Shown: positions 2,513-21,258, numbered from the stretch's first letter. The stretch: DNA of 64,000 bases from Bacteroidota bacterium (GCA_013112545.1 JABFGJ010000002.1:186001-250000), one strand, 5' to 3'. The notes: generated by a model from the letters alone, not told the origin. Numbers and translations are program-made.

Positions 2513-2646
2513 ATAATCACAAAATTGAGTTGTTAAAAATTATATGTTTAATGCTTTATTTATTTTCCAATCACTATGAATATCATAAGCATTTAATCGA
2601 ATATTCAATTTTATTGAATTAAACTTGCAAATTGAAATATTCATTT

Positions 2647-3735
2647 ATGAAGTTAGAAGAAGTAAAATTTGATTGTGTCTTTTTTCGTGGTCATATTCCA
2701 TGTAGTCCTAATAAAGAACATGGAGTAGCATGCTCTAATTGTGACTTTTATCAAGCCATTGAAACAAGAATTTTGATAATCAAATTAGGTGCTATTGGCG
2801 ATGTAATTAGAACAACACCCTTAATTGAAAGCTATCGAAAAACACACCCCAATTGCCACATAACTTGGTTGACTCTCTTTCCTGATGTATTACCAAAAGA
2901 ATCGATTGAAGATGTCCTAAAATGGGAAGTGACATCACTATATAAGATTCAGAATAGAAAATTTGATATAGCAATAAATTTAGATAAGGACGAAGAGGCT
3001 TGTCAGTTATTAGCTCATGTTGATGCTAAAGAAAAATATGGGTTTATTTGGGAGAACAATCACATTTCTGCAGCTACAGAAGCAGCAACTCATAAATTGA
3101 TTACTGGGTTTTTTGATCATATTTCTATTCGGAATACTAAAAACTATTTAGAAGAGATTTTTGAAATCTGCCACTTAAAATTTGAAGGCCAAGAATACCA
3201 AATTCGAAAAAACGAAACGCTGATTGAAAAATGGAATTCGCACATTAAATCAATTGCAAATGGTAAAAAAGTAATTGGCTTAAATACAGGTTGTGGACCT
3301 AGGTGGAAAACAAGGCTTTGGTCTAAGGAAAACTGGATTTCGCTAATTAAGGACTTAGAATCTCAGGGTTATTTCTGTATGATTTTAGGTGGAGCAGCTG
3401 AAGATGAGGTAAATCAGTATTATGCGAAACAAACTGGCGCATACTATCCAGGTCATTTTTCTTTAGAAGAGTTTATAACTCTAACCAATACATGTGATTT
3501 AATTGTTACACAAGTTTCGCTGATGATGCATATAGCAATTGCATTACAAAAGAAAATGGTGCTGATGAATAATATCTTTAACGCACATGAATTTGAATTG
3601 TATGGAAGGGGTGAAATCATTCAACCTACAACAGGGTGCGACTGTTATTACGGTAATACTTGTAGTAGAGAAGTGAGTTGTATGAAAGATATTTCAGTTT
3701 CAATGATTTTAGAATCGGTTAATAAATTCAGCTAA
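2647..3735 (+). CDS. Glycosyltransferase family 9 (heptosyltransferase-like)
   Basis: A 362-residue cytosolic protein with an N-terminal Cys-rich segment (CSPNKEHGVACSNC), then the GT9 signature IIKLGAIGDVIRTTPL and a C-terminal nucleotide-sugar half containing GLNTGCGPRWKTR. GT9 enzymes transfer heptose or related sugars in LPS and other glycans. I chose the ATG at 2647. A TTG 15 bases upstream is in frame, but a -7-like TAAACTTG at 2620-2627 would place the transcript start beyond that TTG. The gene converges with the GH20-like gene, with a single base between the two stop codons and no room for a terminator. The donor and acceptor sugars cannot be deduced. It may belong to the polysaccharide locus or be an independent LPS gene. 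Confidence 0.85.
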   Translation: MKLEEVKFDCVFFRGHIPCSPNKEHGVACSNCDFYQAIETRILIIKLGAIGDVIRTTPLIESYRKTHPNCHITWLTLFPDVLPKESIEDVLKWEVTSLYKIQNRKFDIAINLDKDEEACQLLAHVDAKEKYGFIWENNHISAATEAATHKLITGFFDHISIRNTKNYLEEIFEICHLKFEGQEYQIRKNETLIEKWNSHIKSIANGKKVIGLNTGCGPRWKTRLWSKENWISLIKDLESQGYFCMILGGAAEDEVNQYYAKQTGAYYPGHFSLEEFITLTNTCDLIVTQVSLMMHIAIALQKKMVLMNNIFNAHEFELYGRGEIIQPTTGCDCYYGNTCSREVSCMKDISVSMILESVNKFS

Positions 3736-3736
3736 A

Positions 3737-5173
3737 TTATTCTGCATTCCAAAAAGCATTAGCTGAAAATTCTAAGATGGCATCATATTGCTTAAGATGG
3801 TCACTTTTTTCTTTATTCTTTATAGTTCCGTCTAGTAGTTTATGCCATGAGGTCGCTATCATTCCATTAAAACGCGGATGATTTTTCTCGATGATGTAAT
3901 TAGAAAACTGTCTGGTCATTTCATTCACATTATAAGTTGCTCCAATTACCTGAAAGCCTTTATTTATAAAAAAATCTACAGAAGAAAAATCTAATTTTTG
4001 CTTCAATTTGCCTTTATAATGCTTGTAATGCCAATCACAGATGGTTATATTTTTAGGAATACTATCAATTAACCATCGATACTCTTTTGTGGCATGAAAA
4101 TAACCTGGATGCATATTAGGAAAATCTTCAGGAGCAATTAGCATATCTCCCCACATCCATACTGATATGTTTTTGTTAATAAGGTAGTTGTTTATTTTTT
4201 TTACATTGGATAAGAAAAGTTCAGACGGCAAAATTGGACCGTGTTTGACTATATGTTTCTCCCTAAAGCCAATAACTTCATCGTGTCCAATGTTAATAAT
4301 TTTGGGATCAACTAATTCGATTACTTCATCGATAAGGCTATAAATTAATTGATATACTGCTGGATTCCTGGGGTCTAAGGTTTGATTGTTGAACAATAGT
4401 TCCGGGGAAATCTCTTCTAAAACAAAAGACTTGTTTTGATGGCTTAAAAAGGCAAAATCAAGAACTGGTTCTATGTTAAAAATATTACCAAAGTCGCAAA
4501 TAGACTTAAAGTCAGCCTTGCTCATGGCATCTTTTAAGCAATATTTTTTTGATGCTTCAAATTCAACGCTATTGTGAATCGAGTAAAATGCCCCATTAAA
4601 ATGACCTCTCCATAACCTAAGTAGAACATGTTTAACAACTTCGGGGTCCATCGCTTTGAGGTTGATTTGCATGATTCTCTTTTCAATATTAGGCCAATCT
4701 TTAATGTTTTTTTTCGGTGTTTTGTTTTGCGTTAATTCAAACTCCAGGCTAGCTAATCCATTTATTATTCCCTTGGCATCTATAGCCCCAACTGTAATGT
4801 TGTTGCCGTTAAAATCAATTTCGTAATACTCCTCAATTTGAAAATCTTTTAGATTGGGCTGAGCATTAGTAATTTTAATAAGGTTTAGCTTAGCAGTATT
4901 ACCTGGGTTATTTTTTATAGTGTCGTTTATTATTTGAATGATCTGATTATTCAAATCACGTTTAAATTCATTTTGCTTTAAATTGACTTGATTGAACGAA
5001 GTTCTTCCGTAGTCTGGTGTAGAAATTTTGTATTTAGGGGCTTTTATTGTATTTTTTTTAATAACAGATCCACGGTAATCCTTTTGAGAATTTAATTTAT
5101 TATTTCTTTGAGCAATTCCACAGGATTGAAAAAATGCAATTAGTATGATAATTAGTATTATTCTAAGTTTCAT
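3737..5173 (-). CDS. GH20-like glycosidase lipoprotein
   Basis: The ATG at 5173 opens a clear lipoprotein signal ending in FFQSC (Cys18). It is preferred over an in-frame start 20 codons upstream, which lies within the preceding gene. The mature protein has an N-terminal domain of the kind found before GH20 barrels (YEIDFNGNNITVGAIDAKGI), then a barrel starting around the NWPNIEKRIMQINLK-like stretch. The segment INIGHDEVI (His297, Asp298, Glu299) matches the GH20 catalytic Asp-Glu pair, with His in place of the usual Gly before Asp. An MWGDML segment follows later. GH20 enzymes are exo-beta-N-acetylhexosaminidases. No acidic export signal follows the cysteine, so periplasmic anchoring is inferred. 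It sits head to tail behind a glycosyltransferase gene (gap of 1 base) and may trim or edit the polysaccharide. Confidence 0.75.
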   Translation of the reverse strand: MKLRIILIIILIAFFQSCGIAQRNNKLNSQKDYRGSVIKKNTIKAPKYKISTPDYGRTSFNQVNLKQNEFKRDLNNQIIQIINDTIKNNPGNTAKLNLIKITNAQPNLKDFQIEEYYEIDFNGNNITVGAIDAKGIINGLASLEFELTQNKTPKKNIKDWPNIEKRIMQINLKAMDPEVVKHVLLRLWRGHFNGAFYSIHNSVEFEASKKYCLKDAMSKADFKSICDFGNIFNIEPVLDFAFLSHQNKSFVLEEISPELLFNNQTLDPRNPAVYQLIYSLIDEVIELVDPKIINIGHDEVIGFREKHIVKHGPILPSELFLSNVKKINNYLINKNISVWMWGDMLIAPEDFPNMHPGYFHATKEYRWLIDSIPKNITICDWHYKHYKGKLKQKLDFSSVDFFINKGFQVIGATYNVNEMTRQFSNYIIEKNHPRFNGMIATSWHKLLDGTIKNKEKSDHLKQYDAILEFSANAFWNAE

Positions 5174-5174
5174 T

Positions 5175-6293
5175 TTATTGAATAATTGATACATATTCTT
5201 TTGCAATGGTACTCCAAGCATATTCACTTTCAATTTTTATTATAGAATCCTTTGCATAACTTTCTCTTAATACTTTGTCAGAAGCCATTTTTTTAATTTG
5301 TGTATTTAAATTCTCAATGTTTTCTGATTTAAATAATAAACCTTCGTTGTTATTTAAAACTTCTTTATTGGCTGGCAAATCTGATGCTATAATAGGAAGT
5401 CCATAACTCATAGCCATAAGTAATACACCACTTTGGAATATTTCACGATATGGTAAGATGATAAAATCCGCAGCATTGTATAAGTTATCTCGCTCTTCTT
5501 CAGAAATGTATTTAATAAATAGTTTGGTTTTACTAGTTAATCTACGACTTTCTATAATTGATTCATAAATTTGAAATTCATCCTTCCAAGGTTTTCCAGC
5601 AATAATTAAATGTAGGTTTTCAATATCTGTAGGAAAGGCTTTTAGCAATAAGTCCAATCCCTTTACTTTTTTTATTTGTCCAAAAAACAAGGCATATGTT
5701 ACGTCTTCATCTAATCCCAATGTTTTTCTTGCTGTTTTCTGACCAATATTGCTATTAATTATCGCTTTGTGGCCACCATGCTTTATAATTCTAGTTTTTG
5801 CAATTATATCAATAGGCAATACTTGTTTTAGGTAATTATAAGAGTATTGATTATGCACGATTACTTGGTCAATTAATTTTGAGTAAATAAAGTCTCTTGC
5901 TTTTTGATTTTCATTTTTCTCAAAGCTAGTTACATCGTGTGAAATTCCAATTACTTTTAGACCATAAAACTTAAAAATAGACAGCACCACAAGTGGAATC
6001 CATGAGGCTTCAAAAAGATGAAAAATGACTGTTTTAACACGGTTCTTTTTTAATATTCTACAAGCATTAATTGTACCACCGATGAGGTTTGAGAAACCAG
6101 TTAAGTTTCTACTTATGTCAAAATCAAAGGTTTTTTGAATGTGTATTTTTTCTTCATTTAAACCCTCAGTTAAATTAGAAAGGAGATACGTTTCATAACC
6201 TAAGTTAGCTAATGCATCCAGCAAACACAAGCTATAGTAGTGGTTTCCACCCTTTAATCCCACATAATCTATAATTCCTACTTTTTTACTCAT
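5175..6293 (-). CDS. Glycosyltransferase, GT4/GT1 type (GT-B fold)
   Basis: The start MSKKVGIIDYVGLKGGNHYY overlaps the stop of the upstream sulfotransferase gene by 4 bases (ATGA), which fixes the start and implies translational coupling. About 372 residues. The N-terminal half carries the acceptor-side GGNHYYS loop. The C-terminal half carries FFGQIKKVKGLDLLLKAF and ILPYREIFQSGVLLMAM, the E-x7-like nucleotide-sugar site of retaining GT-B enzymes. It acts at the cytosolic membrane face on a lipid-linked glycan. The operon is sulfotransferase, this gene, GH20-like gene. Substrate unknown. Confidence 0.85.
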   Translation of the reverse strand: MSKKVGIIDYVGLKGGNHYYSLCLLDALANLGYETYLLSNLTEGLNEEKIHIQKTFDFDISRNLTGFSNLIGGTINACRILKKNRVKTVIFHLFEASWIPLVVLSIFKFYGLKVIGISHDVTSFEKNENQKARDFIYSKLIDQVIVHNQYSYNYLKQVLPIDIIAKTRIIKHGGHKAIINSNIGQKTARKTLGLDEDVTYALFFGQIKKVKGLDLLLKAFPTDIENLHLIIAGKPWKDEFQIYESIIESRRLTSKTKLFIKYISEEERDNLYNAADFIILPYREIFQSGVLLMAMSYGLPIIASDLPANKEVLNNNEGLLFKSENIENLNTQIKKMASDKVLRESYAKDSIIKIESEYAWSTIAKEYVSIIQ

Positions 6294-7192
6294 AATAACC
6301 AATCGGGTAACTTTTTGCAAAGATTGTTTTTAATTAAATACTCTTTTAGTTCTTGATTTTTTTCTTTGTAAATAGAATCAAGCAATTGTTTTTCTGATGA
6401 ATAATCTTGGCTCTCTCCTTCTTTATTATTTATTAATCGATAAACTCTTCTTAGTTGTTTTTTAATTGTTGGCTGTTTTATAAAAAAACTACTCAAAGTG
6501 GCATTTATTTTTATAGAAATTGAATGAATAAACTTATTTTTATACCTAGCAGTTTTGTTCTCTACCTCGTTTAGTCCTTTTATTATTTCAGTTTCAAGTC
6601 CTAACCAATCAAATATATCATCTACAATAGCCTGAGGATTTGATACCAAATCCTCAAAAAAGATAATTTTATTATTGTTTTGAAATGTATTCGTCCACGC
6701 CTTAATGTAATCTATATAAAAACCTTCCCTTATTCCTCTACTTACTCTTGTGTCTTCTAATTTAGTATAACAAGCATTTTTTGAGTCAATAATGTGTTGA
6801 TTAAGGGTGGTAGCTGGATCTATTTCTAAGATATACTTACCATGATTGAAGAATGAAATAAATCGTTTACTTGGATCCCTTAAAATAATGATAGTTTTAA
6901 TGTCAGCATTTAGTTCATGCTTCAATGTATGAGCTAGCTTTTCTCCTCCATAAAAATAAGATGGGCTTGCTTCTAAGTTCCACAAATGAGTGTTGCTAGG
7001 GCTAAATTGTTTCCAATAATTCTCTATTTTGTCAGGAGTATTTCCAAATCTAATTGGAGTAAAAAAATGAGTTTCTTTAACCGTAGAAGGATTTATTCTA
7101 CTATGTGAACTAAGGTACTTAAATAATGAAGTTGTACCAGCTTTATGCACTCCGGCAATAATTAATAAAGAGGTATTAGACACAAATTTCAT
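6290..7192 (-). CDS. Sulfotransferase (PAPS-dependent), first of four
   Basis: A 300-residue cytosolic enzyme. The 5'-phosphosulfate-binding loop AGVHKAGTTSLFKYL lies near residues 14-28 and the 3'-phosphate-binding segment LRDPSKRFISFF near the middle. KETHFF after the first loop is typical of carbohydrate sulfotransferases. It would move sulfate from PAPS to a sugar hydroxyl or amine. It is the first gene of a minus-strand operon with a glycosyltransferase and the GH20-like lipoprotein. It diverges from the DUF1972-type glycosyltransferase gene across about 107 bases. The acceptor sugar is unknown. Confidence 0.85.
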   Translation of the reverse strand: MKFVSNTSLLIIAGVHKAGTTSLFKYLSSHSRINPSTVKETHFFTPIRFGNTPDKIENYWKQFSPSNTHLWNLEASPSYFYGGEKLAHTLKHELNADIKTIIILRDPSKRFISFFNHGKYILEIDPATTLNQHIIDSKNACYTKLEDTRVSRGIREGFYIDYIKAWTNTFQNNNKIIFFEDLVSNPQAIVDDIFDWLGLETEIIKGLNEVENKTARYKNKFIHSISIKINATLSSFFIKQPTIKKQLRRVYRLINNKEGESQDYSSEKQLLDSIYKEKNQELKEYLIKNNLCKKLPDWLL

Positions 7193-7299
7193 TACAAATT
7201 TTTAATTTTCGAAAGTCGTAAATATTTCTTTTAAATGCAGTCTTATTTAAGTAAGTTTTAATTCGTTGTTTTGCAAACTTGTATATTAGTTAATTTATT

Positions 7300-8379
7300 T
7301 TGAAAATAGCAATAATCGGTTCGGTTGGAATTCCTTCTAAATACGGAGGTTTCGAAACATTAGCACATCAACTGGTAGATCATTTATCAGACAAAGTTGA
7401 GCTTACTGTTTATTGTAGTGCTCAACAATACACTAAGCGTCCAAAATGCTATAAAAATGCTAAGCTTGAATACATCTCTTTAAATGCAAATGGCATGCAA
7501 AGTATTCCATATGATGTCATTTCAATATTAAAGGCCTACAAGAAAAACGATGTTTTGTTGATTTTAGGCGTGGCTGGTGTATTTATTTTACCCTTTGTTA
7601 AGTTCTTTTCTAAAACTAAAATTTGTGTTCATATTGATGGAATGGAATGGAAAAGAGAAAAATGGAGAATTTATGCTAAGATGTATCTTAAATATACAGA
7701 ACGTTTAGCATTATTTATTTCTGATTCTATCATAGCGGACAACCAAGCAATTTTAGCCAATGTGCCTGAAAAATATCACTATAAAACATCCATGATAACC
7801 TATGGAGGAAATCATGCCAATGAAAGTCAACTAACTAAAGTTTTATTGAGCAAACTAGAAATAGATTTTGACGAATATGCGTTTTCGGTTTGCAGAATAG
7901 TTCCAGAAAATAATATTCGGACAATTTTAAATGCTTTTAAAAAGGAAAATAAAAAGATAGTATTTGTTGGGAATTGGTACGACAGTAACTATGGAATTTC
8001 AATTTGGCAAGACTTCAATGAAGAGCCAATGATTAAGTTGATTAATCCAATTTATAATCAAGAGGAATTAGACGCACTTAGAAGCAACTGTAGTTTATAT
8101 ATTCATGGCCATTCTGCTGGGGGCACTAACCCTTCTTTAGTTGAAGCAATAAGCCTTAGCTTAAACATCGTTTGTTACGATGTCTGTTTTAATCGAGAAA
8201 CACTAAAAGGTCATGGATATTTTTTTAAAAGTGAAGGGGAGTTAAGATCAGTTATATCGAAAAAATTGACATATAAATCAAGTAAAAGGGAGCTGCAAGA
8301 ATTTGCAAATGAGAATTATAACTGGAATAAAATTGCAACATCTTATTATGCTTTGTTTAAGGATTTATATGCTAAATAA
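7300..8379 (+). CDS. DUF1972-type glycosyltransferase (GT4-like)
   Basis: A 359-residue protein beginning MKIAIIGSVGIPSKYGGFET, the hallmark of the DUF1972 N-terminal domain found in rhamnosyltransferase-like enzymes; a GT-B C-terminal half contains GHSAGGTNPSLVEA. The start is a TTG at 7300, since no ATG lies in a suitable place before the conserved N-terminus. It is likely the first gene of the long plus-strand polysaccharide operon, 42 bases before the Wza-type gene. It probably adds a deoxyhexose or similar sugar to the growing repeat unit; the sugar is an inference from the family only. Confidence 0.85.
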   Translation: MKIAIIGSVGIPSKYGGFETLAHQLVDHLSDKVELTVYCSAQQYTKRPKCYKNAKLEYISLNANGMQSIPYDVISILKAYKKNDVLLILGVAGVFILPFVKFFSKTKICVHIDGMEWKREKWRIYAKMYLKYTERLALFISDSIIADNQAILANVPEKYHYKTSMITYGGNHANESQLTKVLLSKLEIDFDEYAFSVCRIVPENNIRTILNAFKKENKKIVFVGNWYDSNYGISIWQDFNEEPMIKLINPIYNQEELDALRSNCSLYIHGHSAGGTNPSLVEAISLSLNIVCYDVCFNRETLKGHGYFFKSEGELRSVISKKLTYKSSKRELQEFANENYNWNKIATSYYALFKDLYAK

Positions 8380-8421
8380 ATGCTATATATAATTACTATT
8401 TTTACTGTTTAGATATTCACT

Positions 8422-9180
8422 ATGAGGTATGTAAAATTATTGTTGATTGTAATTTCAATTAGTGCTTTTCAAAGCTGTAGTTACAAATTCAAAAAAATTC
8501 TGTTTAAAACTGCAAACGAGATTGAAACAAGTGAGTCAAATCCAATTGTTGTAATAAATCCACAAGAATATAAACCTTTCCACCAATGCAAAGAAGGCGA
8601 TGTTCTCTATGTTAGATTACTCAACGAAGATGGCGAAAGAAGTGCATATGAAAAGTTAGCAACTTCTAGAGATGATGCCAAATTTGTTGTACACGACAGT
8701 GTGATAACTTTACCAAGTATTGGTGATGTTAATGTATTGGGATTATCAAAAAATGAGATAATTAAGAAAGTTAGCTTAGCATATTCTAAATACATAATAG
8801 ACCCTATTGTTGATGTAGATTTTGTAAGTTTATCAGTAAATATTTTAGGTGAGGTTATTAAACCAGGAAGGTATCCTATTACAGAAAAAATGAATTTAAT
8901 TGAAGCCCTTGGATTAGCGGGCGGATTTTCACCTTATGGAATTTTTAAGAACGTGAAAATTATTCGAGGCGAAGGAGATAAGCAAGAAGTGATTGTAGTA
9001 AATGTTACAGATATCAATATTTTAGGGAACGAAAAATTATTACTTCATGATAAGGATATAGTTTATGTTGAGCCTAGAAGAGTGAAGCAATTTGATACAG
9101 CCGTTAGGCCATATTTATTTCTCACCAGTATATTATCATCTGCAGCAGCAGTTTTTATCGTAATTACACGTACCAATTAA
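8422..9180 (+). CDS. Wza-like polysaccharide export lipoprotein
   Basis: A 252-residue lipoprotein with the lipobox FQSC (Cys19). A polysaccharide export (Poly_export) domain runs from about CKEGDVLYVRLLNEDG, and one SLBB domain covers NILGEVIKPGRYPITEKMNL through ALGLAGGFSP. A C-terminal hydrophobic helix (YLFLTSILSSAAAVFIVI) would span the outer membrane as in Wza. It forms the outer-membrane channel that passes the polymer out. Its stop codon overlaps the ATG of the Wzc-like gene by one base (TAATG), so the two are translationally coupled. Confidence 0.9.
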   Translation: MRYVKLLLIVISISAFQSCSYKFKKILFKTANEIETSESNPIVVINPQEYKPFHQCKEGDVLYVRLLNEDGERSAYEKLATSRDDAKFVVHDSVITLPSIGDVNVLGLSKNEIIKKVSLAYSKYIIDPIVDVDFVSLSVNILGEVIKPGRYPITEKMNLIEALGLAGGFSPYGIFKNVKIIRGEGDKQEVIVVNVTDINILGNEKLLLHDKDIVYVEPRRVKQFDTAVRPYLFLTSILSSAAAVFIVITRTN

Positions 9181-11528
9181 TGAATAAGAATATTTTAGCT
9201 GACAAACTAGAACTAGCCAATTTCATAAATCAAGTGAAGTTGAAATTGCCTTGGCTTCTACTTTTTTTATTCATAGGTTTATCATCAGGATATTTAGTAT
9301 CTAAATACAAAAAACAAGTTTTTAGCGCTAAAGCAACAATAAAAATTGACGATAAATCATCTAATGTTACTGACTTTTTAGCTATTGATATGTTTTCGGA
9401 GAGCTTTAATCAATACAATAAAATATTGACTGAAGCTAGAATAATTTCTTCAAGAACAATGATTGAAAAGGCATTAGAGAAATTGCCTTTAGATGTTAGG
9501 TATTATAAAAAAGGAAGGTTTTCTTCTTATGAATTATATCGTAAATCGCCAATAAATTTAAATTTATTATCAGCGAGTGATGAAATTACACCTTTAGAAA
9601 TAGATTTAGAATTTAAAGACGAAAATCATTTTATTATAAGTTATGAAAAAAATGGGATTAGGGATACATCCATAAACTTAACTTATAATCAACCATTTAA
9701 AATTTTTGAAGAATCTTATTCGATAGATAGAGTTTATAGTGAGCCGTTAAAATCAATTGAGACGGATGGAAGTTACGTAATTAAAGTTGTAGATAAGGTG
9801 AAGCTGGCTCAAGAATTTGCGAAGCAACTTACTGTCACTCAAGTCGAAGAAAAAGTAGCACTATTGTCAATTGTTTATCAATCTTCTAATCCGCTTTTAT
9901 GTAAAGACTTTGTTGATGCTTTGGTCAGCAGTTATTCTAACGTAGAATTTGAATTAAAAGCCCTTGCAGCTAGTAATACCATTCGCTTTATTGACGAAAG
10001 ATTGGATCAATTGTCGAGCACTATGAATGAGGTAGAAGATCAAATCACCCAATTTAAACAAGATAAAAGAATTATTGATTTTGAATCAGTAGAGCGTATT
10101 GAATCCGAGCGGTTGATTGACTTAGAATCAAGTAAGCGAATCGCAGAACTTCGAATATTGAATTTTAATATCGTTGAAAACGAATTAAACCAAGGTAAGA
10201 AATTATCAGAAATTAGTATTAATGCTGAAGGGAATATGGATCCCACATTAAATCAGTTAATAACTGCGTTTAATAATCTTAAAATTCAGAAAGCAACACT
10301 AGGAGTTAACTTTACTATAGATAGTAAAAAAGCAAGAGAGCTTGATTCTCAAATAATTGAAACAATTAATTCTATAAGAGAGAGCATAAAGCTTTCGAAG
10401 TCCGCAGTTGAAAAGGAGATAGAATATTTAGATTCTAAGATTGAAATCCTGAATAGCAGGTATAATATTTTCCCTGAAGACCAACAAGATTATTTTCACT
10501 TGATACGTGATTTTGAAGTCAACCAGAAAGTAGTCTCCTTTTTAATGGAAAAGAAAATCGAAGCATCCATTGCCAATGCTTCATTAATCCCAGATATTCA
10601 GGTGATAGATTTGCCAATACTGCCAGAGGAACCCATTTCTATTAGTACTTTAAATATTTATTTATTGAGTGTTTTCTTATCATTATTAATTGGCACTTCT
10701 ATTATTTTAATTTTTGTATTTCTCAATGATCGTATTTACGATAAAGTTATACTTGAGACTACCACTGATATACCTGTACTGGGGACTCTTACTGTAAGTA
10801 ACTCTAATGAATTTGAAAGTGTTGAAGAAATAATAGGTACAGAAAGAACGATATTTAAAGAGTCTGTAAATGCTTTAAGAACTAATTTAAGATTTTTGCC
10901 AAATTCCTCAAAAGCACAAGTAGTTTCTGTTACTTCTACAGTTAGCCAAGAAGGAAAATCATTTATGCTTATAAACCTAGCTACCTCATTGACTTTGCTT
11001 GGGAAAACTGTTGTGGTTATTGACCTTGATATGCGAAAACCTAAAATCCAAAACTATTTTGATAAAGACAATAAAAAATTGGGAGCTAGCTTGTATTTAT
11101 CAGGTAAAGCAACTTTAGAAGAAGCTGTTGTAAACTCACATATTCCCAATCTAGATGTTATCTTATCAGGGCCAATTCCTCCAAATCCTATGGAATTAAT
11201 TCAATCTGATAAATTTCATGAAATGATTGCGAAATTAAAGGAGAATTACGATTATATCATGATTGACAACCCTCCAATAGGTATAGTTGCGGATGCTATC
11301 TTTGTTTTAAAAAATAGTGACATCAATCTTTTTGTTGTTCGTTCAGGATTTTCAAGAATTGGATTTTTGGATACAGCAATTAATGCTAAAGAAAAAAACA
11401 AAATTCCAAACTTATACTTTGTACTTAACGGTGTAAATAAAACCAGTAGTGGTTATTATAAAAACTATTCTCAAGGGTATTACACAGACCAAAGTCCCAA
11501 GCAGGGTATGTGGTTTAAGAAATCATAA
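9180..11528 (+). CDS. Wzc-like chain-length regulator with tyrosine kinase domain
   Basis: A 782-residue inner-membrane protein. The first TM helix is near residues 24-42, a large periplasmic Wzz/coiled-coil part follows, and a second TM helix lies near residue 490-515. A cytosolic BY-kinase domain then shows Walker A SQEGKS (Lys593), Walker A' VVVIDLDMRKPK and Walker B YIMIDNPP. The C-terminus carries a tyrosine cluster (GYYKNYSQGYYTDQ) for autophosphorylation. In Wzc systems this cycle controls polymer length and export together with Wza. No Wzb-type phosphatase gene is seen in the window. The fused kinase is the normal arrangement in Gram-negative bacteria. Confidence 0.92.
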   Translation: MNKNILADKLELANFINQVKLKLPWLLLFLFIGLSSGYLVSKYKKQVFSAKATIKIDDKSSNVTDFLAIDMFSESFNQYNKILTEARIISSRTMIEKALEKLPLDVRYYKKGRFSSYELYRKSPINLNLLSASDEITPLEIDLEFKDENHFIISYEKNGIRDTSINLTYNQPFKIFEESYSIDRVYSEPLKSIETDGSYVIKVVDKVKLAQEFAKQLTVTQVEEKVALLSIVYQSSNPLLCKDFVDALVSSYSNVEFELKALAASNTIRFIDERLDQLSSTMNEVEDQITQFKQDKRIIDFESVERIESERLIDLESSKRIAELRILNFNIVENELNQGKKLSEISINAEGNMDPTLNQLITAFNNLKIQKATLGVNFTIDSKKARELDSQIIETINSIRESIKLSKSAVEKEIEYLDSKIEILNSRYNIFPEDQQDYFHLIRDFEVNQKVVSFLMEKKIEASIANASLIPDIQVIDLPILPEEPISISTLNIYLLSVFLSLLIGTSIILIFVFLNDRIYDKVILETTTDIPVLGTLTVSNSNEFESVEEIIGTERTIFKESVNALRTNLRFLPNSSKAQVVSVTSTVSQEGKSFMLINLATSLTLLGKTVVVIDLDMRKPKIQNYFDKDNKKLGASLYLSGKATLEEAVVNSHIPNLDVILSGPIPPNPMELIQSDKFHEMIAKLKENYDYIMIDNPPIGIVADAIFVLKNSDINLFVVRSGFSRIGFLDTAINAKEKNKIPNLYFVLNGVNKTSSGYYKNYSQGYYTDQSPKQGMWFKKS

Positions 11529-11533
11529 TTCAA

Positions 11534-13725: not shown

Positions 13726-13726
13726 T

Positions 13727-14593
13727 ATGAAAATTGAAAGCCCTATCATAATCATCGGGATGCACCGATCTGGAACTACGTTGTTAACCAAGCTTTTGGA
13801 AAAGTTTGGACTCTTTGTTGGTCACAAAAAAAGGAAAAACTATGAAGCGACTTTTTTTCAAAAATTGAATAAATGGCTTCTATACCAAGCCAATGTGACT
13901 TGGGATTCTACCGGGAATATTGCTTATGTAGATGAAGATTTTTTACAGTCTGTATCAGAGGTTGCTAAGAAAAGACTATCAAGTGTATTTAGAATGGAAT
14001 TTTTAGGCCCTAAAAAATTTATCAATAATACCTCTATTAGTGAACTTACATTTAAATGGGGCTGGAAAGATCCAGTAAACAGTATAACCATTGATGTTTG
14101 GAAGAATATTTTTCCCAAAGCTAAGATTATCTATGTCTATAGAAACCCAATTGATGTGGCTCAAAGCTTAAAAGTTAGAGAAGAGAAAAGAAGAAAGGAT
14201 CGAAAACTAGGGATGAAACAAAGAATAAAACAAAAACTATTGTTTAGAGATTACCAATTCAATCAATCTTATTTAATTAACGACTTTTCAAAAGGAATTG
14301 ATTTGTGGAAAGAATACGTTAACCTAAATGAGAAAACTCTCGAGAAGTACCCTAATGATATTATAAAAATTAAATACGAAGATTTATTAGAAAATCCTTC
14401 AGGAAAATTAGCTGAAATTATTGATTTTTGTGAACTTATAGTTTCAAAATCAGAAATAGAGAAAGTTAGTTCTATAATTGATAGTTCTCGCAGATATGGA
14501 TTTATAAACAATCCTGAATTATGCAATCATTACTTAACAATAAAACAAGACCCCTTGATGACAAAATTGGGTTATGATAATATTCCGATATGA
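13727..14593 (+). CDS. Sulfotransferase, third of four (Sulfotransfer_3-like)
   Basis: A 288-residue enzyme that differs clearly from the two flanking sulfotransferases. Its PAPS loop is IIIIGMHRSGTTLLTKLLEK and its 3'-site IYVYRNPIDVAQSLKVR. It lacks the KE-HFF segment. A basic stretch (EEKRRKDRKLGMKQRIKQK) sits near residues 148-166. The end overlaps the next gene by 4 bases. It probably modifies a different position or sugar from its neighbours; a non-carbohydrate acceptor cannot be excluded. Confidence 0.85.
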   Translation: MKIESPIIIIGMHRSGTTLLTKLLEKFGLFVGHKKRKNYEATFFQKLNKWLLYQANVTWDSTGNIAYVDEDFLQSVSEVAKKRLSSVFRMEFLGPKKFINNTSISELTFKWGWKDPVNSITIDVWKNIFPKAKIIYVYRNPIDVAQSLKVREEKRRKDRKLGMKQRIKQKLLFRDYQFNQSYLINDFSKGIDLWKEYVNLNEKTLEKYPNDIIKIKYEDLLENPSGKLAEIIDFCELIVSKSEIEKVSSIIDSSRRYGFINNPELCNHYLTIKQDPLMTKLGYDNIPI

Positions 14594-15549
14594 TAGATAA
14601 AGATGAAAACATTATAATTGTTGGATCCCAAAACTCGAATACTAATGATCGATTTTTAGAACGATCAAATATTAAAAGTGTTCAATACTTTGATAAGAAT
14701 AAATCATTTGAAGAAATCTCGTTTTTTAGCAAACAAGGTGAATTGGGGATTAGTTCTATATGTTGGAAACCAAGTGAACCATTGATTTGGTTTTATACAA
14801 CAGGCACAGAGATTATTCGATTGAATCTTGATACAAAAGAATCGAGAGAACTTCCAATAGACCATTTAAAAGACATTCATGAAATTTCTATTATTGATGG
14901 TTTTTTGTGGATTTCAAATACTTGTTATGATGAATTAGTTTGTGTTGACCTTGAAAGTGAATTAGTGAAAGAGCGGTTTCAACTGGGAGGAGGGAATATA
15001 CAGATTGAAAATGGCAAAAAAAACAAGTATCATAGCAATCAAGTTTTTAGTACTTATGATGGTGAACTAACTGCTTTAGTACATCATGTTAACGGTGAGC
15101 AATTGTTTAATCGAGTGGCACAAAAGCTCATAAAAAGTCAAGGAAATGGAGGAGTTTTATTTCTTAAATCTGGCAAAACAATACGGCTGCAATTAAAAGC
15201 ACCACATTCGGTTAGGAAAGTGAACGGACAGTATTGGATTTTTGATTCAGGTCATGCACAATTAAATGTTTATTCAAAAGAATGGAAACTTATTAAAGAA
15301 ATGAGCATGGCTGGCTGGGGTAGAGGTGGCGACTTTTCAGATTCAAAACAACTATACTATGCTGGTGTTTCAGCTAAAAGAAAACGATACTTAGCATTTA
15401 ACGAAGAAAACAAACAACAAAATATGTTACAAATCTTCAATTATAATTTTGAATTAAAAGCAGAGTATCTTGTGCCAAATATTGAGCAAATCAATAACGT
15501 TTATTTAATTTCTGCAAATCAACTTGAGTTGATTAGAAAACTTGGATAA
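14590..15549 (+). CDS. Beta-propeller-like protein of unknown function
   Basis: A 319-residue protein without signal peptide or membrane helix, so cytosolic. It shows repeated blade-like units with WxF/WIS and hydrophobic strand patterns: ICWKPSEPLIWFYTTG, DIHEISIIDGFLWISNT, APHSVRKVNGQYWIFDSGHA, SMAGWGRGGDFSD. Several His residues sit at equivalent blade starts (DIHE, KYHSNQVF, VHHV, APHSV), which could line a central metal or ligand site; this last point is inference. It is coupled by a 4-base overlap to the third sulfotransferase gene and precedes a GT2 gene. I do not recognise a named family with confidence. A lectin-like or lyase-like accessory for the sulfated glycan would fit the context. 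Confidence 0.6.
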   Translation: MIDKDENIIIVGSQNSNTNDRFLERSNIKSVQYFDKNKSFEEISFFSKQGELGISSICWKPSEPLIWFYTTGTEIIRLNLDTKESRELPIDHLKDIHEISIIDGFLWISNTCYDELVCVDLESELVKERFQLGGGNIQIENGKKNKYHSNQVFSTYDGELTALVHHVNGEQLFNRVAQKLIKSQGNGGVLFLKSGKTIRLQLKAPHSVRKVNGQYWIFDSGHAQLNVYSKEWKLIKEMSMAGWGRGGDFSDSKQLYYAGVSAKRKRYLAFNEENKQQNMLQIFNYNFELKAEYLVPNIEQINNVYLISANQLELIRKLG

Positions 15550-15618
15550 CATTAAACATGAAGTTTCTAAATGCAGAAATGATGAGTGTTTGATTTTAAC
15601 TCGTAAAAAGTATAGTTT

Positions 15619-16533
15619 ATGTCAAATCTTACTTCAATAATTGTTTTAAATTTTAATGGATTTGAAGATACTATCGAGTGTGTTGACTCTTTAATTGAAC
15701 ACATTAAAATTGGATTTGAGCTAATAGTTGTTGACAATTGTTCTGTCAATGATTCCTGGAATCAGTTAAGAAAACAAAAAGAGCAAAATTCGAATTGGAC
15801 TAAGATTCACTTGGTGCAAACAACAGAAAATAGAGGTTTTTCAGCTGGGAATAACTTTGGGGTCAAGTATGCGAAAAAACATTTTAACTCAGCTTACTTC
15901 TGGTTGCTAAACAACGATACAGTCATTAAAAGCGATGCTTTATCACCATTAATAAAAACCTTTAGATCTAATTTAAAAAGTGGAATCGTTGGCTCTAAAT
16001 TGATGTTTTATGATAAACCTGATGTAGTTCAGGCGATTGGCGGGCGTTTTAATAAATATACAGGTAAGTTTAACCAAATTGGTTTTGGAAAATTAGAAGG
16101 CGAGTTAAACTTGGAAGAGAAACATTCGATAGATTATGTAGTTGGCGCTTCTCTTTTTGTATCAATGCAATTTATAGAAACAGTAGGCTTGTTGTCAGAA
16201 GATTATTTCCTTTATTTTGAGGAAGTAGATTGGAGTATTAGAAGTCATAAGAACGGGTACGAAACTTTATCATGTTTAGAAAGTGTTGTTTATCATAAAC
16301 AAGGAAAGTCAACTAAAAACAATGTCAGATCGAAGCGGAATATAAATATGATGTATTTTCAATTTAAAAACCTGATTTTAATATATAAAAAATACTATCC
16401 CCATTTGTTTTTTGTTCCCTATTTTGTAATAACTTATCGGAGCGTGAAATTAATGGTCAAACAAGATTTATCGTACCTAAATTTATGGCTTCAAGTAATT
16501 TTTAAAAAACGGAGGGAGAGTTTTGTCAAATAA
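15619..16533 (+). CDS. Glycosyltransferase family 2 (rhamnosyltransferase-like)
   Basis: A 304-residue GT-A enzyme. It opens with TSIIVLNFNGFEDTIECVDS and VDNCSVNDSW, has the NRGFSAGNNFGVKYA motif, the metal-binding WLLNNDT (DxD equivalent) and the acceptor-side LYFEEVDWSIR. These are the features of inverting GT2 enzymes such as rhamnosyltransferases. Two hydrophobic stretches near the C-terminus (FFVPYFVITYR) may associate with the membrane. It follows the propeller-like gene after 69 bases and overlaps the fourth sulfotransferase gene by 11 bases. Confidence 0.88.
   Translation: MSNLTSIIVLNFNGFEDTIECVDSLIEHIKIGFELIVVDNCSVNDSWNQLRKQKEQNSNWTKIHLVQTTENRGFSAGNNFGVKYAKKHFNSAYFWLLNNDTVIKSDALSPLIKTFRSNLKSGIVGSKLMFYDKPDVVQAIGGRFNKYTGKFNQIGFGKLEGELNLEEKHSIDYVVGASLFVSMQFIETVGLLSEDYFLYFEEVDWSIRSHKNGYETLSCLESVVYHKQGKSTKNNVRSKRNINMMYFQFKNLILIYKKYYPHLFFVPYFVITYRSVKLMVKQDLSYLNLWLQVIFKKRRESFVK
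16511..16525 (+). promoter_or_regulatory. Shine-Dalgarno-like GGAGG before a TTG start
   Basis: GGAGG at 16511-16515 stands 7 bases before the TTG at 16523. Genes in this window otherwise show no clear Shine-Dalgarno sequence. Here the match lies inside the end of the GT2 coding region and could assist re-initiation at a weak start codon, or simply be coding chance. Confidence 0.4.
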
Positions 16534-17371
16534 AATACCAAATTTATTTATTGTTGGTGTAGCTAAAGCAGGCACAACTGTTTTAGCAAACTATTTGTCT
16601 CAACACCCTGACATTTTTATGTCAAAGGTTAAAGAGCCTGATTTTTTTTCTAACCGAGAAATAAATGAGGCAAAACTGTATTATAAAACAAAACCGCTTA
16701 ATAATGAGGGTAAATACCTCTCATTGTTTAAACAGGTTTCTCACGAAAAATGGATAGGCGAGGCAAGTGTTTCTTATTTTTTTTATAAAGCTTGTGCAGA
16801 GAGGATAAAACTGTATTCCCCCGAATCTAAAATTATTTTAATTGTCAGACACCCAATAGATCGGGCTTATTCACACTATTTAATGGATAAAAGACTTGGT
16901 TTTGTTAAGGCTGATTTTGAAGATATTGTTAAAAAACCTGCGAGTCATGAAAAACATTATGATCAATACATACAACAGGGATTTTATTCACAGAAAATCG
17001 AAGAATATCAGAATCAATTTGGCGAAAATTTGTTGATTCTGCCTTGGCAAGGCAACCTAGAGTTAAGTTTAAAAAAAATTTTTCATTTCTTAAATATAGC
17101 TCCTATTGAAGTAACAGAAGTAGAAGCCAACAAAAGTATGTTGCCTAAAAATGATTTTTTGCAGCGTATATATTCTAATGGAATGATTCGAAAAGGTATT
17201 GGGAAAGTACTTCCTGTGCAGCTTATTCAAAATATAAAGTCAAAAGCATTTGTAAAACAAGATGTTAAACTTTCAGACGAAATGCACGAGAACTTAGAAA
17301 AGATTTATCATGCTGATATTAAAAAAACTCAAGAATTAGTTGGTTTTACATTAAAGTCTAATTTTAAGTAA
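16523..17371 (+). CDS. Sulfotransferase, fourth of four
   Basis: A 282-residue enzyme with the PAPS loop FIVGVAKAGTTVLANYLSQH, a KEPDFFS segment after it, and the 3'-site IVRHPIDRAYSHYLMD. It resembles the gene at 12862 more than the one at 13727. The start is a TTG, supported by the upstream GGAGG and by the position of the conserved N-terminus. It is followed after 2 bases by the polymerase-like gene. It would add sulfate to the polymer subunit; the acceptor is unknown. Confidence 0.87.
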   Translation: MSNKIPNLFIVGVAKAGTTVLANYLSQHPDIFMSKVKEPDFFSNREINEAKLYYKTKPLNNEGKYLSLFKQVSHEKWIGEASVSYFFYKACAERIKLYSPESKIILIVRHPIDRAYSHYLMDKRLGFVKADFEDIVKKPASHEKHYDQYIQQGFYSQKIEEYQNQFGENLLILPWQGNLELSLKKIFHFLNIAPIEVTEVEANKSMLPKNDFLQRIYSNGMIRKGIGKVLPVQLIQNIKSKAFVKQDVKLSDEMHENLEKIYHADIKKTQELVGFTLKSNFK

Positions 17372-17373
17372 GC

Positions 17374-18642
17374 ATGAAAAGTCTATCAAGTTTATTTAAA
17401 GAAAGATTTGCAGTTCCTTTCCTGATTCTATTCCTGTTGGAGATATTTAGTTTATTGATAAATATTCCCATTCCATTTGTTTATGAAATTTTAGATTTGG
17501 GATTTATTGTTTTTTTATCTTCATTTTTTGTTTATCTAACAGTTAAGTGTTTTAAAACTAAGCAAATATCAAGATTGTATTTGTTGCTATTAATCCTGTC
17601 TCTAGTTCCAATTCTTGGGGCTGTGCAGGCTATGATATATTATAATCAACCTTTTATTTATGGAATACTGTCTGAGAGGCTTAAAGTATTGGCTATAGGC
17701 GGATTGTTAATTGTTAATTTTCTTGAAAAAGGCCTAATAACTTTAGAGCAAATAAAAAAAACAGTACTTTATCTAGCATTTCTAATCTTAGTAGTATTGT
17801 TATTTCTTAACATATTCGTTCCTGGATCTACCATGGAAGAGTATGACTTTGTAGTTAATACTGCTTCTAAAGGCTATCGTTTTAAATTAAATAACAGCCT
17901 AATTGTGATCTTGTTTTTTTATTCATTAATTGTAGGTGTTGAACAAAATAAAATTCGATACCTCGGACTTGTATTAATTATACTATTCTATTTAACTTTT
18001 CTTTATAAGGCTCGTTCTTTAACCCTTTCAATTATTATTGCAACAGCTTTTTATTTAGTTCAAAGAGTTAAATTTTATAGGTTAATATCATTTGGTGTAA
18101 TATTTACTGTTGTATCAACTTTCATTTTTGCAGTGGCTTTTGTTTTTTTTAACGAACAAATTATTAAAATAGCAGAATTGTTTTCAAGTGCACTTAGTGT
18201 GTTTATTGGTGGAGAAGTGACAGATTCTTCTGCTTTATCCAGATACAGCCAATATGAAATTGCGAGTGAAGGAATAGCAAAACACCCCTTCTTGGGCAAT
18301 GGCTTTTTAAGTAGCAGATTCGGGGGAGGACTAACTGGACTTTATGGTTATTTCTATCCTTCTGATATTGGATGGATGGGAACCTTGTATTTATATGGAA
18401 TCCTTGGGACTGCAATCTATATTATCCCATTTATTTTAACAGCTTATTATTCATTTAAAATTAAAAAATTGAATAAGAAAGTGGATGCATTTGCTTCAGC
18501 TATGGTCTATACTATGCTCTATTTTTTCATACATAGCACAACAGCTGGGTTCTTTGTAAAGAAATTAGGAATTATCATTTTTGTATTCTCGATGGTCTAT
18601 TATTATTACTACTCATTAAAGTTAAAAGAAGTAACAAAATAA
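17374..18642 (+). CDS. Wzy-like O-antigen/capsule polymerase
   Basis: A 422-residue polytopic membrane protein with about 10-12 hydrophobic helices. A larger loop between late helices (residues near 270-335) contains the FLGNGFLSSRFGGGLTG and YPSDIGWMG stretches, which fits the periplasmic loop of Wzy and O-antigen ligase (Wzy_C) proteins. ARSLTLS before it resembles the conserved Arg-Ser region of that family. It would join repeat units on the periplasmic side. Sequence families of Wzy are poorly conserved, so the call rests on topology, this loop and the operon. Confidence 0.8.
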   Translation: MKSLSSLFKERFAVPFLILFLLEIFSLLINIPIPFVYEILDLGFIVFLSSFFVYLTVKCFKTKQISRLYLLLLILSLVPILGAVQAMIYYNQPFIYGILSERLKVLAIGGLLIVNFLEKGLITLEQIKKTVLYLAFLILVVLLFLNIFVPGSTMEEYDFVVNTASKGYRFKLNNSLIVILFFYSLIVGVEQNKIRYLGLVLIILFYLTFLYKARSLTLSIIIATAFYLVQRVKFYRLISFGVIFTVVSTFIFAVAFVFFNEQIIKIAELFSSALSVFIGGEVTDSSALSRYSQYEIASEGIAKHPFLGNGFLSSRFGGGLTGLYGYFYPSDIGWMGTLYLYGILGTAIYIIPFILTAYYSFKIKKLNKKVDAFASAMVYTMLYFFIHSTTAGFFVKKLGIIIFVFSMVYYYYYSLKLKEVTK

Positions 18643-18645
18643 TTT

Positions 18646-20046
18646 ATGCTTTTTAACTCACTCCAATTTCTTTGTTTCCTTCCAATCGTAGTGATGTTGT
18701 ACTTTTCGTTGGCCCATAGGTATAGATGGCTTCTACTTTTAGTAGCAAGTTATTACTTTTATGGAAGTTGGAAAGTTGAGTATCTTTTGTTAATAGTCTT
18801 ATCGACAATAGTCGATTATTATGTGGCTATTAAAATGCACGAGCAAACTACAAAAGGGGCAAAAAAAAGTTGGTTAATTGCTAGTGTACTAATAAATTTA
18901 GGAGTTCTTTTTTGGTTTAAATATTATGGATTCTTTTCTGATAGTATAAATTCAGTATTATCAACTTACACAGATAGTCAGCTACCATTGTACCAATTCC
19001 TACTTCCAGTTGGTATTTCTTTTTACACTTTTCAATCGATGAGCTATACCATCGATGTATATAGAAATGAACGCCTACCCGAAAGACATCTTGGAGTTTT
19101 TGCTTTATACGTCTCTTTTTTTCCACAGCTAGTTGCAGGGCCAATAGAACGTAGTACTAGTTTATTGCCTCAATTCTTTATAAAGCACGATATTAACTAT
19201 TTAAGGATAGTAAGTGGTTTAAAACAAATAGTAAGAGGTTTTTTTAAGAAAGTAGTTGTTGCAGATCGACTAAGTATCTATGTTGATACAATTTACAATA
19301 ATTATGAGAATCACACAGGAGTCACATTGTTGCTAGCTACTATTTTCTTTGCGTTTCAAATTTATTGTGATTTTTCTGGATATTCTGATATAGCCATAGG
19401 AAGTGCTCGATTAATGGGGTTTGAACTAATGGAAAATTTTAAAAGACCTTATTTTTCTAAGGGAATTAGAGAGTTCTGGTCAAGATGGCACATCTCTCTA
19501 TCTACATGGTTTAGAGATTATTTATACATCCCTTTAGGAGGAAATAGAGTGGTTAAGTGGAGGGTTTATTATAATTTAATGCTTGTTTTTGTCGTAAGTG
19601 GATTCTGGCATGGAGCTAACTGGACTTTTATTGTTTGGGGTGTTTTACATGGGATTTATATAGTAATTGAAACTATGATTAATAATCCTAAAACTTTCAA
19701 AAGAAGTAATAAGCTAACTCAAGCAGCTAAAATTAGTTTTACGTTCATTTTAGTTTGTTTTGCATGGATATTTTTTAGAGCAAACAATATTGAAGAAGCT
19801 TTTGAAATTATTAAGCGAATATTAAGCTTTAAAGGCAGTATTTATTTAGGAGGGCAAAGTAACCTTATTTATTCTGTTATTACACTTACAATACTAATTT
19901 TAGTAGAGTTTAAACAAGAGCTAACCAAAAAAGGAACTATCCATCGCTCACCTTATTTTACTTTTTTTAAATATTTGGTGATAGTAATAGTTATTATGCT
20001 TCTTGGTGTATTTGATGAAGGGCAATTTATTTATTTTCAATTTTAA
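18646..20046 (+). CDS. MBOAT family O-acyltransferase (AlgI/DltB-like)
   Basis: A 466-residue polytopic protein. The family features are WLLLLVASYYFYGSWK near the start, EFWSRWHISLSTWFRDYLY in the middle, and VVSGFWHGANWTFIVWG with the catalytic His322. In AlgI and DltB systems this protein moves an acyl group, usually acetyl, across the membrane to a partner that loads it on the polymer. The next gene, 3 bases downstream, encodes such an SGNH-type partner. It follows the polymerase gene by 3 bases, so it belongs to the same transcription unit. Confidence 0.9.
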   Translation: MLFNSLQFLCFLPIVVMLYFSLAHRYRWLLLLVASYYFYGSWKVEYLLLIVLSTIVDYYVAIKMHEQTTKGAKKSWLIASVLINLGVLFWFKYYGFFSDSINSVLSTYTDSQLPLYQFLLPVGISFYTFQSMSYTIDVYRNERLPERHLGVFALYVSFFPQLVAGPIERSTSLLPQFFIKHDINYLRIVSGLKQIVRGFFKKVVVADRLSIYVDTIYNNYENHTGVTLLLATIFFAFQIYCDFSGYSDIAIGSARLMGFELMENFKRPYFSKGIREFWSRWHISLSTWFRDYLYIPLGGNRVVKWRVYYNLMLVFVVSGFWHGANWTFIVWGVLHGIYIVIETMINNPKTFKRSNKLTQAAKISFTFILVCFAWIFFRANNIEEAFEIIKRILSFKGSIYLGGQSNLIYSVITLTILILVEFKQELTKKGTIHRSPYFTFFKYLVIVIVIMLLGVFDEGQFIYFQF

Positions 20047-20049
20047 TAA

Positions 20050-20982
20050 ATGAAAAATAAGGCTATTAACAAATTATTTAAAATGCTTTTCCTTTTTGGA
20101 GTTTCATTGGCAATATTAGACTTTTCTATAGGTTTTGCTCTTAACTACATGACTGTAAATCAAAAAGATGGCAACTATCATAAGTTGATAAATTGTATAG
20201 AAAATAAAGAATTAGACCTTGTTATTTTAGGCAATTCTAGAGCAGAAAGGCAGTTTATTCCTTCCATTATCTCAATGGAAACTGGATTGAGCGCATATAA
20301 TTTAGGTTACGGAGGAAGAGACTTGAACTTTGTCGATGCACTAACTTCTGTAATCGTCTCACGAAATCCCCCTAAATACTTAATGGTAGAATTTCAGCTT
20401 TCAAACTTTAGAATGCCAATAAATCAAGATAGAATGTCTTTCCTAAACCCATTTTATTATAGATACCCAGAATTGCAGCCCTTTTTAAACCGAGGTGAAA
20501 TTTCAAGAAAACTTGCATTTTCTTCATCATTATTTCAGTTTAATTCAAGCTTGTGGGATATAGTTAGTCCGTATTTTCAAAAGGTTGAACTTGAACAAGG
20601 TTACAGACCTTTGTATGGTAAACTAAAAATGAATAAACCTAAACAATTCAAAGAGGAAGAGAGTGAAGAAGAAGTTGAAATAATGCTTCCTGAAATACAA
20701 GTTGTTTTTGAGAATATAGTTGCTGAGACAGCTAAGAATAATATTAAGTTAATTGTTGTTTTGTCTCCACAGTTTAATAAAGAGCATAATGAAAATAAGT
20801 TTGCAATGGAAAAGCAATACTTAAATCAATTTGAAGATATTATTATTTGGGACTACAGCCAAGATTCAAGATTTACTGAAGTGCCCATACTTTTTAATGA
20901 TATTAGGCATCTAAACCACCATGGCTCACAGATATTTACAAAATTAATAGCAGAACGGATTAAAAATGAGTTGTTAAACTAG
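20050..20982 (+). CDS. SGNH-like acyltransferase partner protein (DltD/AlgX-type)
   Basis: A 310-residue protein with an N-terminal membrane anchor (residues 10-32). LVILGNSRAERQF holds the nucleophile-type serine (Ser63), and near the end FNDIRHLNHHGSQ holds Asp284 and His287, completing a Ser-Asp-His set. The arrangement is that of membrane-anchored SGNH proteins that work with MBOAT transporters to acetylate periplasmic polymer. The family is not identified by name; the role is inferred from motifs plus its place directly behind the MBOAT gene. It is the last gene of the operon. Confidence 0.75.
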   Translation: MKNKAINKLFKMLFLFGVSLAILDFSIGFALNYMTVNQKDGNYHKLINCIENKELDLVILGNSRAERQFIPSIISMETGLSAYNLGYGGRDLNFVDALTSVIVSRNPPKYLMVEFQLSNFRMPINQDRMSFLNPFYYRYPELQPFLNRGEISRKLAFSSSLFQFNSSLWDIVSPYFQKVELEQGYRPLYGKLKMNKPKQFKEEESEEEVEIMLPEIQVVFENIVAETAKNNIKLIVVLSPQFNKEHNENKFAMEKQYLNQFEDIIIWDYSQDSRFTEVPILFNDIRHLNHHGSQIFTKLIAERIKNELLN

Positions 20983-20987
20983 AATAA

Positions 20988-21033
20988 AGACTTAAATCTT
21001 TTCCCTTAAGGAAAAGAGAAAAGATATAAGTCT
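20988..21033 (+). other. Hairpin after the polysaccharide operon
   Basis: A 14-bp stem with one mismatch (20989-21002 with 21019-21032) encloses a smaller TTCC/GGAA hairpin. It lies just past the last gene of the operon. It lacks a T-run, so it may be a transcript-stabilising or weak termination structure rather than a standard terminator. The rest of the gap to 21258 shows no gene. Confidence 0.5.
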
Positions 21034-21258
21034 TGTAACCCCCCTTAAACATTCCTGTATTACACTACGTTTCAAACGCTATACTCTGGCCTGAGTCATT
21101 GAATCTAAATTATGATGAATCTAAATGTAATGACTATAACTTAAAACTATATATTTTTTGATGTACTTGTTGTATAGTAGATACATTGTTTAACATATAA
21201 TGTTATAACCATTCACTATTCTTTGTACACAATTAATATGAACAATAGCTTAAAAAGC

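Follow-up and report, generated by a model that had tools for sequence, protein, structure and literature searches.

A Bacteroidota locus with four distinct sulfotransferases that probably makes and exports a sulfated surface polysaccharide

Recent papers still place bacterial sulfated polysaccharides only in cyanobacteria and in a small number of marine bacteria; in a mat survey, the Bacteroidetes genomes were recorded as devoid of the sulfotransferase. Among the described systems, sulfation has been shown experimentally for synechan, the exopolysaccharide of the xss cluster of Synechocystis sp. PCC 6803, whose authors were aware of no such cluster outside the cyanobacteria (PMC8205485). The wps-1 cluster of Actinoplanes missouriensis acts in sporangium formation, and its sulfate is not yet verified (PMC13390465), while the capsules of Vibrio sp. 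KMM 8419 and Cobetia marina KMM 1449 carry sulfate proven by nuclear magnetic resonance (PMC11641403, PMC11766843). Here, we describe a locus of about 15 genes in a 64,000-nucleotide stretch of a Bacteroidota genome (GCA_013112545.1, JABFGJ010000002.1:186001-250000; hereafter the window, whose numbering is used for all coordinates) that very probably would build, sulfate, acetylate, and export a surface sugar polymer. We consider it likely that a Wzx/Wzy-dependent route yields a sulfated surface polysaccharide (exopolysaccharide or capsule) that is probably also O-acetylated.

The closest known systems are synechan xss and Actinoplanes wps-1, with two sulfotransferases each. Like the present locus, xss is Wzx/Wzy-dependent, has sulfotransferases of distinct subfamilies, and leaves one part (there the OPX gene) encoded elsewhere; it differs in its cyanobacterial host, its two sulfotransferases, its eight glycosyltransferases including the primer, and its xssS/R/Q regulators (PMC8205485). 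The present locus, in contrast, has four sulfotransferases (five in a related genus), Wza inside and the primer outside, an MBOAT/SGNH pair, a GH20 lipoprotein, and a beta-propeller protein. The wps-1 cluster resembles it in having a predicted Wzx/Wzy system, a methyltransferase, a glycoside hydrolase, and sulfotransferase genes, one of whose two products has a heparan-sulfate-type domain, but it belongs to a Gram-positive host without an outer membrane, its hydrolase is GH26 rather than GH20, and it stops at two sulfotransferases (PMC13390465). Vibrio and Cobetia likewise combine sulfotransferase and polysaccharide genes with cysNDC and cysQ for 3'-phosphoadenosine 5'-phosphosulfate (PAPS), and the Vibrio polymer is also acetylated; unlike the present case, these Gammaproteobacteria use ABC-transporter (Kps-type) export and keep the PAPS genes inside the cluster (PMC11641403, PMC11766843). 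Finally, Pontiella sulfatireligans, a marine heterotroph with a sulfated exopolymer, has a putative glycosaminoglycan cluster with a sulfotransferase among GT2/GT4 genes; it is a member of the Verrucomicrobiota with one sulfotransferase, and the part of that account at hand describes no Wza/Wzc core (PMC7356697). An open-literature search found no description of such a locus in Bacteroidota, which is not proof of absence. Overall, the locus fits a known kind of system and differs in how many sulfotransferases it has and how separate they are, in its host group, and in its helper genes.

All gene calls within 2632-20982 were confirmed to be present as given, and the genes are as tightly packed as the first-pass annotation had described, with spacings of -59 to +5 bases save three gaps of 42 (before wza), 69 (before the GT2 gene), and 107 bases. 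The last is a divergent spacer (7193-7299), from which a minus-strand unit (ST1-GT4-GH20) and a plus-strand unit (GT4-wza-wzc-wzx-ST2-ST3-propeller-GT2-ST4-wzy-MBOAT-SGNH) diverge; no Bacteroidota -7 motif (TAnnTTTG) was found in this spacer. After the last plus-strand gene, at 20983-21040, an AAGACTT...AAGTCTT inverted repeat surrounds a CTTTTCC/GGAAAAG stem, possibly a terminator. The host assignment to Bacteroidota is that of the first-pass annotation, and gene content and low G+C are consistent with it. The locus genes are listed below, with identities to orthologs in a second genus of the same family (genome G013; the source genome is G000).

3737-5233, minus strand: GH20-type beta-hexosaminidase-like lipoprotein; signal peptide, catalytic-type D-E pair in GHDEV, sub-threshold Pfam match, match to 9fyl; ortholog 39%
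5175-6320, minus strand: GT4 glycosyltransferase (Pfam), overlapping the upstream sulfotransferase and downstream GH20 genes; ortholog 43%
6290-7192, minus strand: ST1 sulfotransferase (PF00685); HKAGTTS loop, RDPSKRFIS, E in KETHFF; ortholog L024:17243-18145, 36% identity
7300-8379, plus strand: GT4 glycosyltransferase with DUF1972 (Pfam), first in the plus-strand operon; ortholog 57%
8422-9180, plus strand: Wza-type outer-membrane polysaccharide export protein; Poly_export, SLBB; ortholog 70%
9180-11528, plus strand: Wzc-type chain-length/tyrosine autokinase; Pfam, TIGR01007; ortholog 62%
11534-12865, plus strand: Wzx-type flippase; Polysacc_synt, MatE; ortholog 43%
12862-13725, plus strand: ST2 sulfotransferase; QKSGTST loop, RNPIDRAFS, catalytic-type E in NKEAHFFD; ortholog 42%
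13727-14593, plus strand: ST3 sulfotransferase (Sulfotransfer_3 type); HRSGTTL loop, RNPIDVAQS; ortholog 44%
14590-15549, plus strand: DUF4915-like beta-propeller protein without signal peptide; ortholog 50%
15619-16533, plus strand: GT2 glycosyltransferase (Pfam); ortholog 47%
16523-17371, plus strand: ST4 sulfotransferase; AKAGTTV loop, RHPIDRAYS, E in KEPDFF; ortholog 41%
17374-18642, plus strand: probable Wzy polymerase; Wzy_C 30.0 bits vs a cut-off of 31.7; ortholog 45%
18646-20046, plus strand: MBOAT O-acyltransferase, DltB/AlgI-like; PF03062; ortholog 67%
20050-20982, plus strand: SGNH/DltD-like acyltransferase partner of MBOAT; GNSR and DxxHLN motifs; ortholog 36%

The four PAPS-dependent sulfotransferase genes first proposed at 6290, 12862, 13727, and 16523 all score above the curated Pfam cut-offs of 22 and 27 for PF00685 and PF13469 (ST1, PF00685, 47.6 bits; ST2, 76.5 bits; ST3, PF13469, 78.5 bits; ST4, PF13469, 47.2 bits). 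Missing PAPS-binding residues had been named beforehand as the finding that would speak against sulfation; in the alignment, all four proteins, as well as the five sulfotransferases of G013, retain both the 5'-phosphosulfate loop (G-x-x-K/R-x-G-T) and the 3'-phosphate motif (R-x-P...S). The closest solved relatives of ST1, ST2, and ST4 are 3rnl and the heparan sulfate 3-O-/N-sulfotransferases (3-OST/NDST), with ST2 and ST4 nearest to 3rnl and ST2 also near the 3-O-sulfotransferases. A glutamate in their K-E-x-x-F-F segment aligns with the glutamate that serves as the catalytic base in heparan sulfate 3-O-sulfotransferases, and by sequence these three appear to belong to the heparan sulfate sulfotransferase-like group. 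ST3 falls outside this group.

Pairwise identity among ST1-ST4 is only 15-29%, and in a tree of 40 sulfotransferases each groups with its G013 ortholog (support 100/99, 92/94, 100/99, and 100/99), the pairs lying apart. Judged from these comparisons, the four are deep lineages and not recent copies of each other; the tree rules out recent tandem duplication, except that the fifth sulfotransferase of G013 is sister to ST4. Sulfation at several positions is supported indirectly by these long-separated, individually conserved lineages. A scan of genome contigs with ST2 returned distant matches only, in an Acidobacteriota metagenome-assembled genome and in Rhizobium setariae. None of the four has a signal peptide, the sequences starting nearly at the first strand, which would be consistent with activity at the cytosolic face, where PAPS is found. 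Their clustering is not due to chance because the 3.27-Mb genome has seven PF00685 matches, four of which fall within 10.6 kb (about 5e-6 under random placement, by our own estimate).

It might be asked whether only some of these enzymes act on the polymer, the rest sulfating lipids, proteins, or small molecules and being carried along. The enzyme family is broad, and the solved relatives of ST3, weakly similar, are the Teg glycopeptide sulfotransferases; however, all four genes belong to closely packed transcription units that include glycosyltransferases, and each has its one-to-one counterpart in G013; we regard this explanation as unlikely. The three further sulfotransferase matches in the source genome lie at C11:1-16000 (L017), C4:144500-164000 (L018), and C13:1-16000 (L019), the last near a second Wzc, which suggests more than one sulfated glycan in this organism.

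The first-pass calls of Wza, Wzc, Wzx, glycosyltransferases, and acyltransferase also stand, the polymerase resting on a sub-threshold hit. The flippase scores 73.3 bits against PF01943 (cut-off, 28.2); PF02563 and SLBB matches of the Wza-type protein and the TIGR01007 match of Wzc are above cut-off, the latter protein also matching PF02706 (Wzz), GNVR, and AAA_31. Pfam assigns the glycosyltransferases to GT4 (two), GT2 (one), and GT9 (one), and the GT4/DUF1972 protein resembles the beta-1,4-rhamnosyltransferase Cps2T, below cut-off. Membership of the GT9 gene, previously included in the locus, was not upheld:

2632-3735, plus strand: GT9 (heptosyltransferase-like) glycosyltransferase (Pfam); candidate locus member; the G013 contig stops short of this position

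This gene bears on whether the product could instead be a sulfated O-antigen, with the Wzy_C protein and its GT9 neighbor working in lipopolysaccharide assembly and the sulfotransferases decorating the O-chain. Wzy_C takes in O-antigen ligases besides polymerases, and the GT9 is heptosyltransferase-like, yet its place in the locus is that of a candidate, and Wza (70%) and Wzc (62%), among the best-conserved genes of the block, are export parts that an O-antigen does not need. An O-antigen therefore seems distinctly unlikely, and an exported polysaccharide remains our preferred reading.

Genes for priming and PAPS synthesis, noted earlier as missing, are indeed absent from the locus, and both kinds were found elsewhere in the genome. 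One cluster (contig 1:43.7-52.5 kb) holds cysC, cysD, cysN, and cysQ together with a DASS anion symporter; a CysH-type reductase is encoded on contig 2, so assimilation draws on PAPS/APS (adenosine 5'-phosphosulfate) too. Two WcaJ-like priming transferases (PF02397) occur, at contig 4:53049 and contig 1:414646. One of them has a DUF1972 glycosyltransferase and a Wzy of its own next to it, while the other (contig 4:53049) is an orphan with no recognized polysaccharide gene as immediate neighbor and is our candidate for serving this locus.

Conserved synteny of the sulfotransferases with wza/wzc, which the first-pass annotation had named as supporting evidence to look for, was found in one other genus. 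Contig C37 of G013 (L024) matches the block in gene content, order, and orientation and has in addition a fifth sulfotransferase (7913-8812 of that contig region, between the GT2 and propeller genes) that is absent from the window. Ortholog identities range from 36% (ST1, SGNH) to 70% (Wza) compared with 78-81% for SecA, which indicates long evolution of the block in both lineages. In both genomes, the block reaches a methyltransferase and adjoins secA:

21259-22113, minus strand: S-adenosylmethionine-dependent methyltransferase, block edge; conserved beside the block in G013, 65% identity
22222-25554, minus strand: secA, flanking gene outside the pathway; common landmark for the chromosomal position of the block in G000 and G013

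Seventeen other genomes of the family have unrelated genes beside secA (judged by lack of similarity to window proteins), which gives no support to the idea that polysaccharide loci generally gather at this flank. On the simplest reading, the block stood at the secA site already in the common ancestor of the two genera; gain there and loss elsewhere both fit. Its G+C is lower than that of the rest of the window (0.306 vs 0.351), as might be seen in a decaying acquired island with inactive sulfotransferases or a silent locus. Nevertheless, all frames are open, the cofactor and catalytic-type residues are kept, and orthologs at 36-70% identity are intact in another genus, making such decay extremely improbable.

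Within the family, a sulfotransferase was found in 40 of 46 genomes and an APS kinase in 39. Together with the published two-sulfotransferase Wzx/Wzy clusters of cyanobacteria and Actinoplanes, this means that the rarity first claimed for the locus was overstated. At least five other genomes (G020, G027, G035, G038, and G039) have three sulfotransferases grouped within ~13 kb, the family maximum of four and five being the present block in G000 and G013, and several sulfotransferase neighborhoods include Wzc or MBOAT relatives. Therefore, the locus represents the extreme of a family habit rather than an isolated oddity. Profiles of the propeller protein and Wzc were run on 395 genomes of the class, drawn evenly, and the propeller profile also on all 46 of the family/order; at the sensitivity used, a wide distribution of the locus in the class was rejected. 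As a separate observation, one region of another genome (L033, G006:C6:72000-91000) has two Wzc genes in tandem (6749-9184 and 13627-16056) with similar-sized neighbors, together with two sulfotransferase-like frames that are identical to each other, pointing to either a recent duplication or an assembly artifact.

Earlier annotation of the block had overlooked the GH20-type lipoprotein, the cytosolic beta-propeller protein, and the methyltransferase. The lipoprotein matches a solved GH20 domain (9fyl, E 7e-22; Pfam 19.9 vs a cut-off of 22.3) and keeps the catalytic-type D-E-V in its ortholog (GHDEV here, GFDEV in G013), which suggests a beta-linked hexosamine in the polymer. The propeller protein is a predicted beta-propeller (mean predicted local distance difference test score, 84.5) that falls below family cut-offs (DUF4915, 31.9 vs 35; TIGR03032, 29.5 vs 251.5) and is a distant relative of these families rather than a member. 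A fold search returned generic beta-propellers only, with no functional lead, and no literature was found on DUF4915/TIGR03032 or on 9fyl. As a marker of sulfated-polymer loci, the DUF4915-like protein was rejected, its nearer relatives in another family (f90) lying in regions without sulfotransferases among the labelled genes. Two side observations concern such proteins: a strongly conserved stand-alone subfamily of ~327 amino acids in another family of the phylum (L069-L077), in neighborhoods without recognized sulfotransferases, and DUF4915 genes directly upstream of frames of at least 3000 codons (one of 3611 amino acids) at two places in one genome (L064 and L065, G659). The SGNH-type protein had no Pfam, NCBIfam, or PDB match; its GNSR and DxxHLN motifs also occur in proteins encoded beside MBOAT genes in two other regions (L032 and L034), and, by analogy, it and the DltB-like MBOAT resemble known O-acetylation pairs. 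A bolder interpretation would be a bacterial counterpart of heparan sulfate patterning, that is, a hexosamine-containing, glycosaminoglycan-like polymer with four or five distinct sulfated positions, dedicated and largely heparan-type sulfotransferases, and the GH20 lipoprotein and cytosolic propeller as pathway-specific helpers, which we think unlikely.

In the proposed pathway, presumably in this order, a priming transferase from elsewhere (contig 4:53049 or contig 1:414646) would load the first sugar onto undecaprenyl phosphate, and the locus glycosyltransferases would lengthen the lipid-linked repeat. The four cytosolic sulfotransferases might each have their own target position or sugar within this repeat, with PAPS drawn from the distant cysC-cysD-cysN cluster and 3'-phosphoadenosine 5'-phosphate (PAP) removed by cysQ. 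The repeat would then be flipped by Wzx, acetylated (acetyl being the presumed acyl group) in the periplasm by the MBOAT/SGNH pair, polymerized by Wzy, and exported by Wzc/Wza to a putative surface location, and the GH20-type lipoprotein may trim or recycle the hexosamine-containing chain. Several points weigh against this proposal: (i) sulfation of the polymer is itself inferred from genes; (ii) enzymes with a sulfotransferase fold also use lipids, proteins, and small molecules as substrates, and the acceptors are thus deduced from context; (iii) the polymerase candidate misses the PF04932 cut-off and had no NCBIfam match; (iv) the locus holds neither a priming transferase nor a sugar-nucleotide gene; (v) close matches to the propeller and Wzc profiles were found in G000 and G013 only; and (vi) APS kinase also occurs in four family genomes in which no sulfotransferase was detected (G002, G031, G033, and G034), and is therefore permissive rather than specific.

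The locus is not a new kind of system, but it is unusually rich in sulfotransferases and widens the range of likely makers of sulfated polymers. It brings the expected assembly parts together compactly, in a family whose genomes mostly encode sulfotransferases and APS kinase. If sulfation of the polymer is borne out, this group's heterotrophs would produce sulfated glycans as well as degrade them, and the locus would supply enzymology with four bacterial sulfotransferases that are naturally separate and lack signal peptides.

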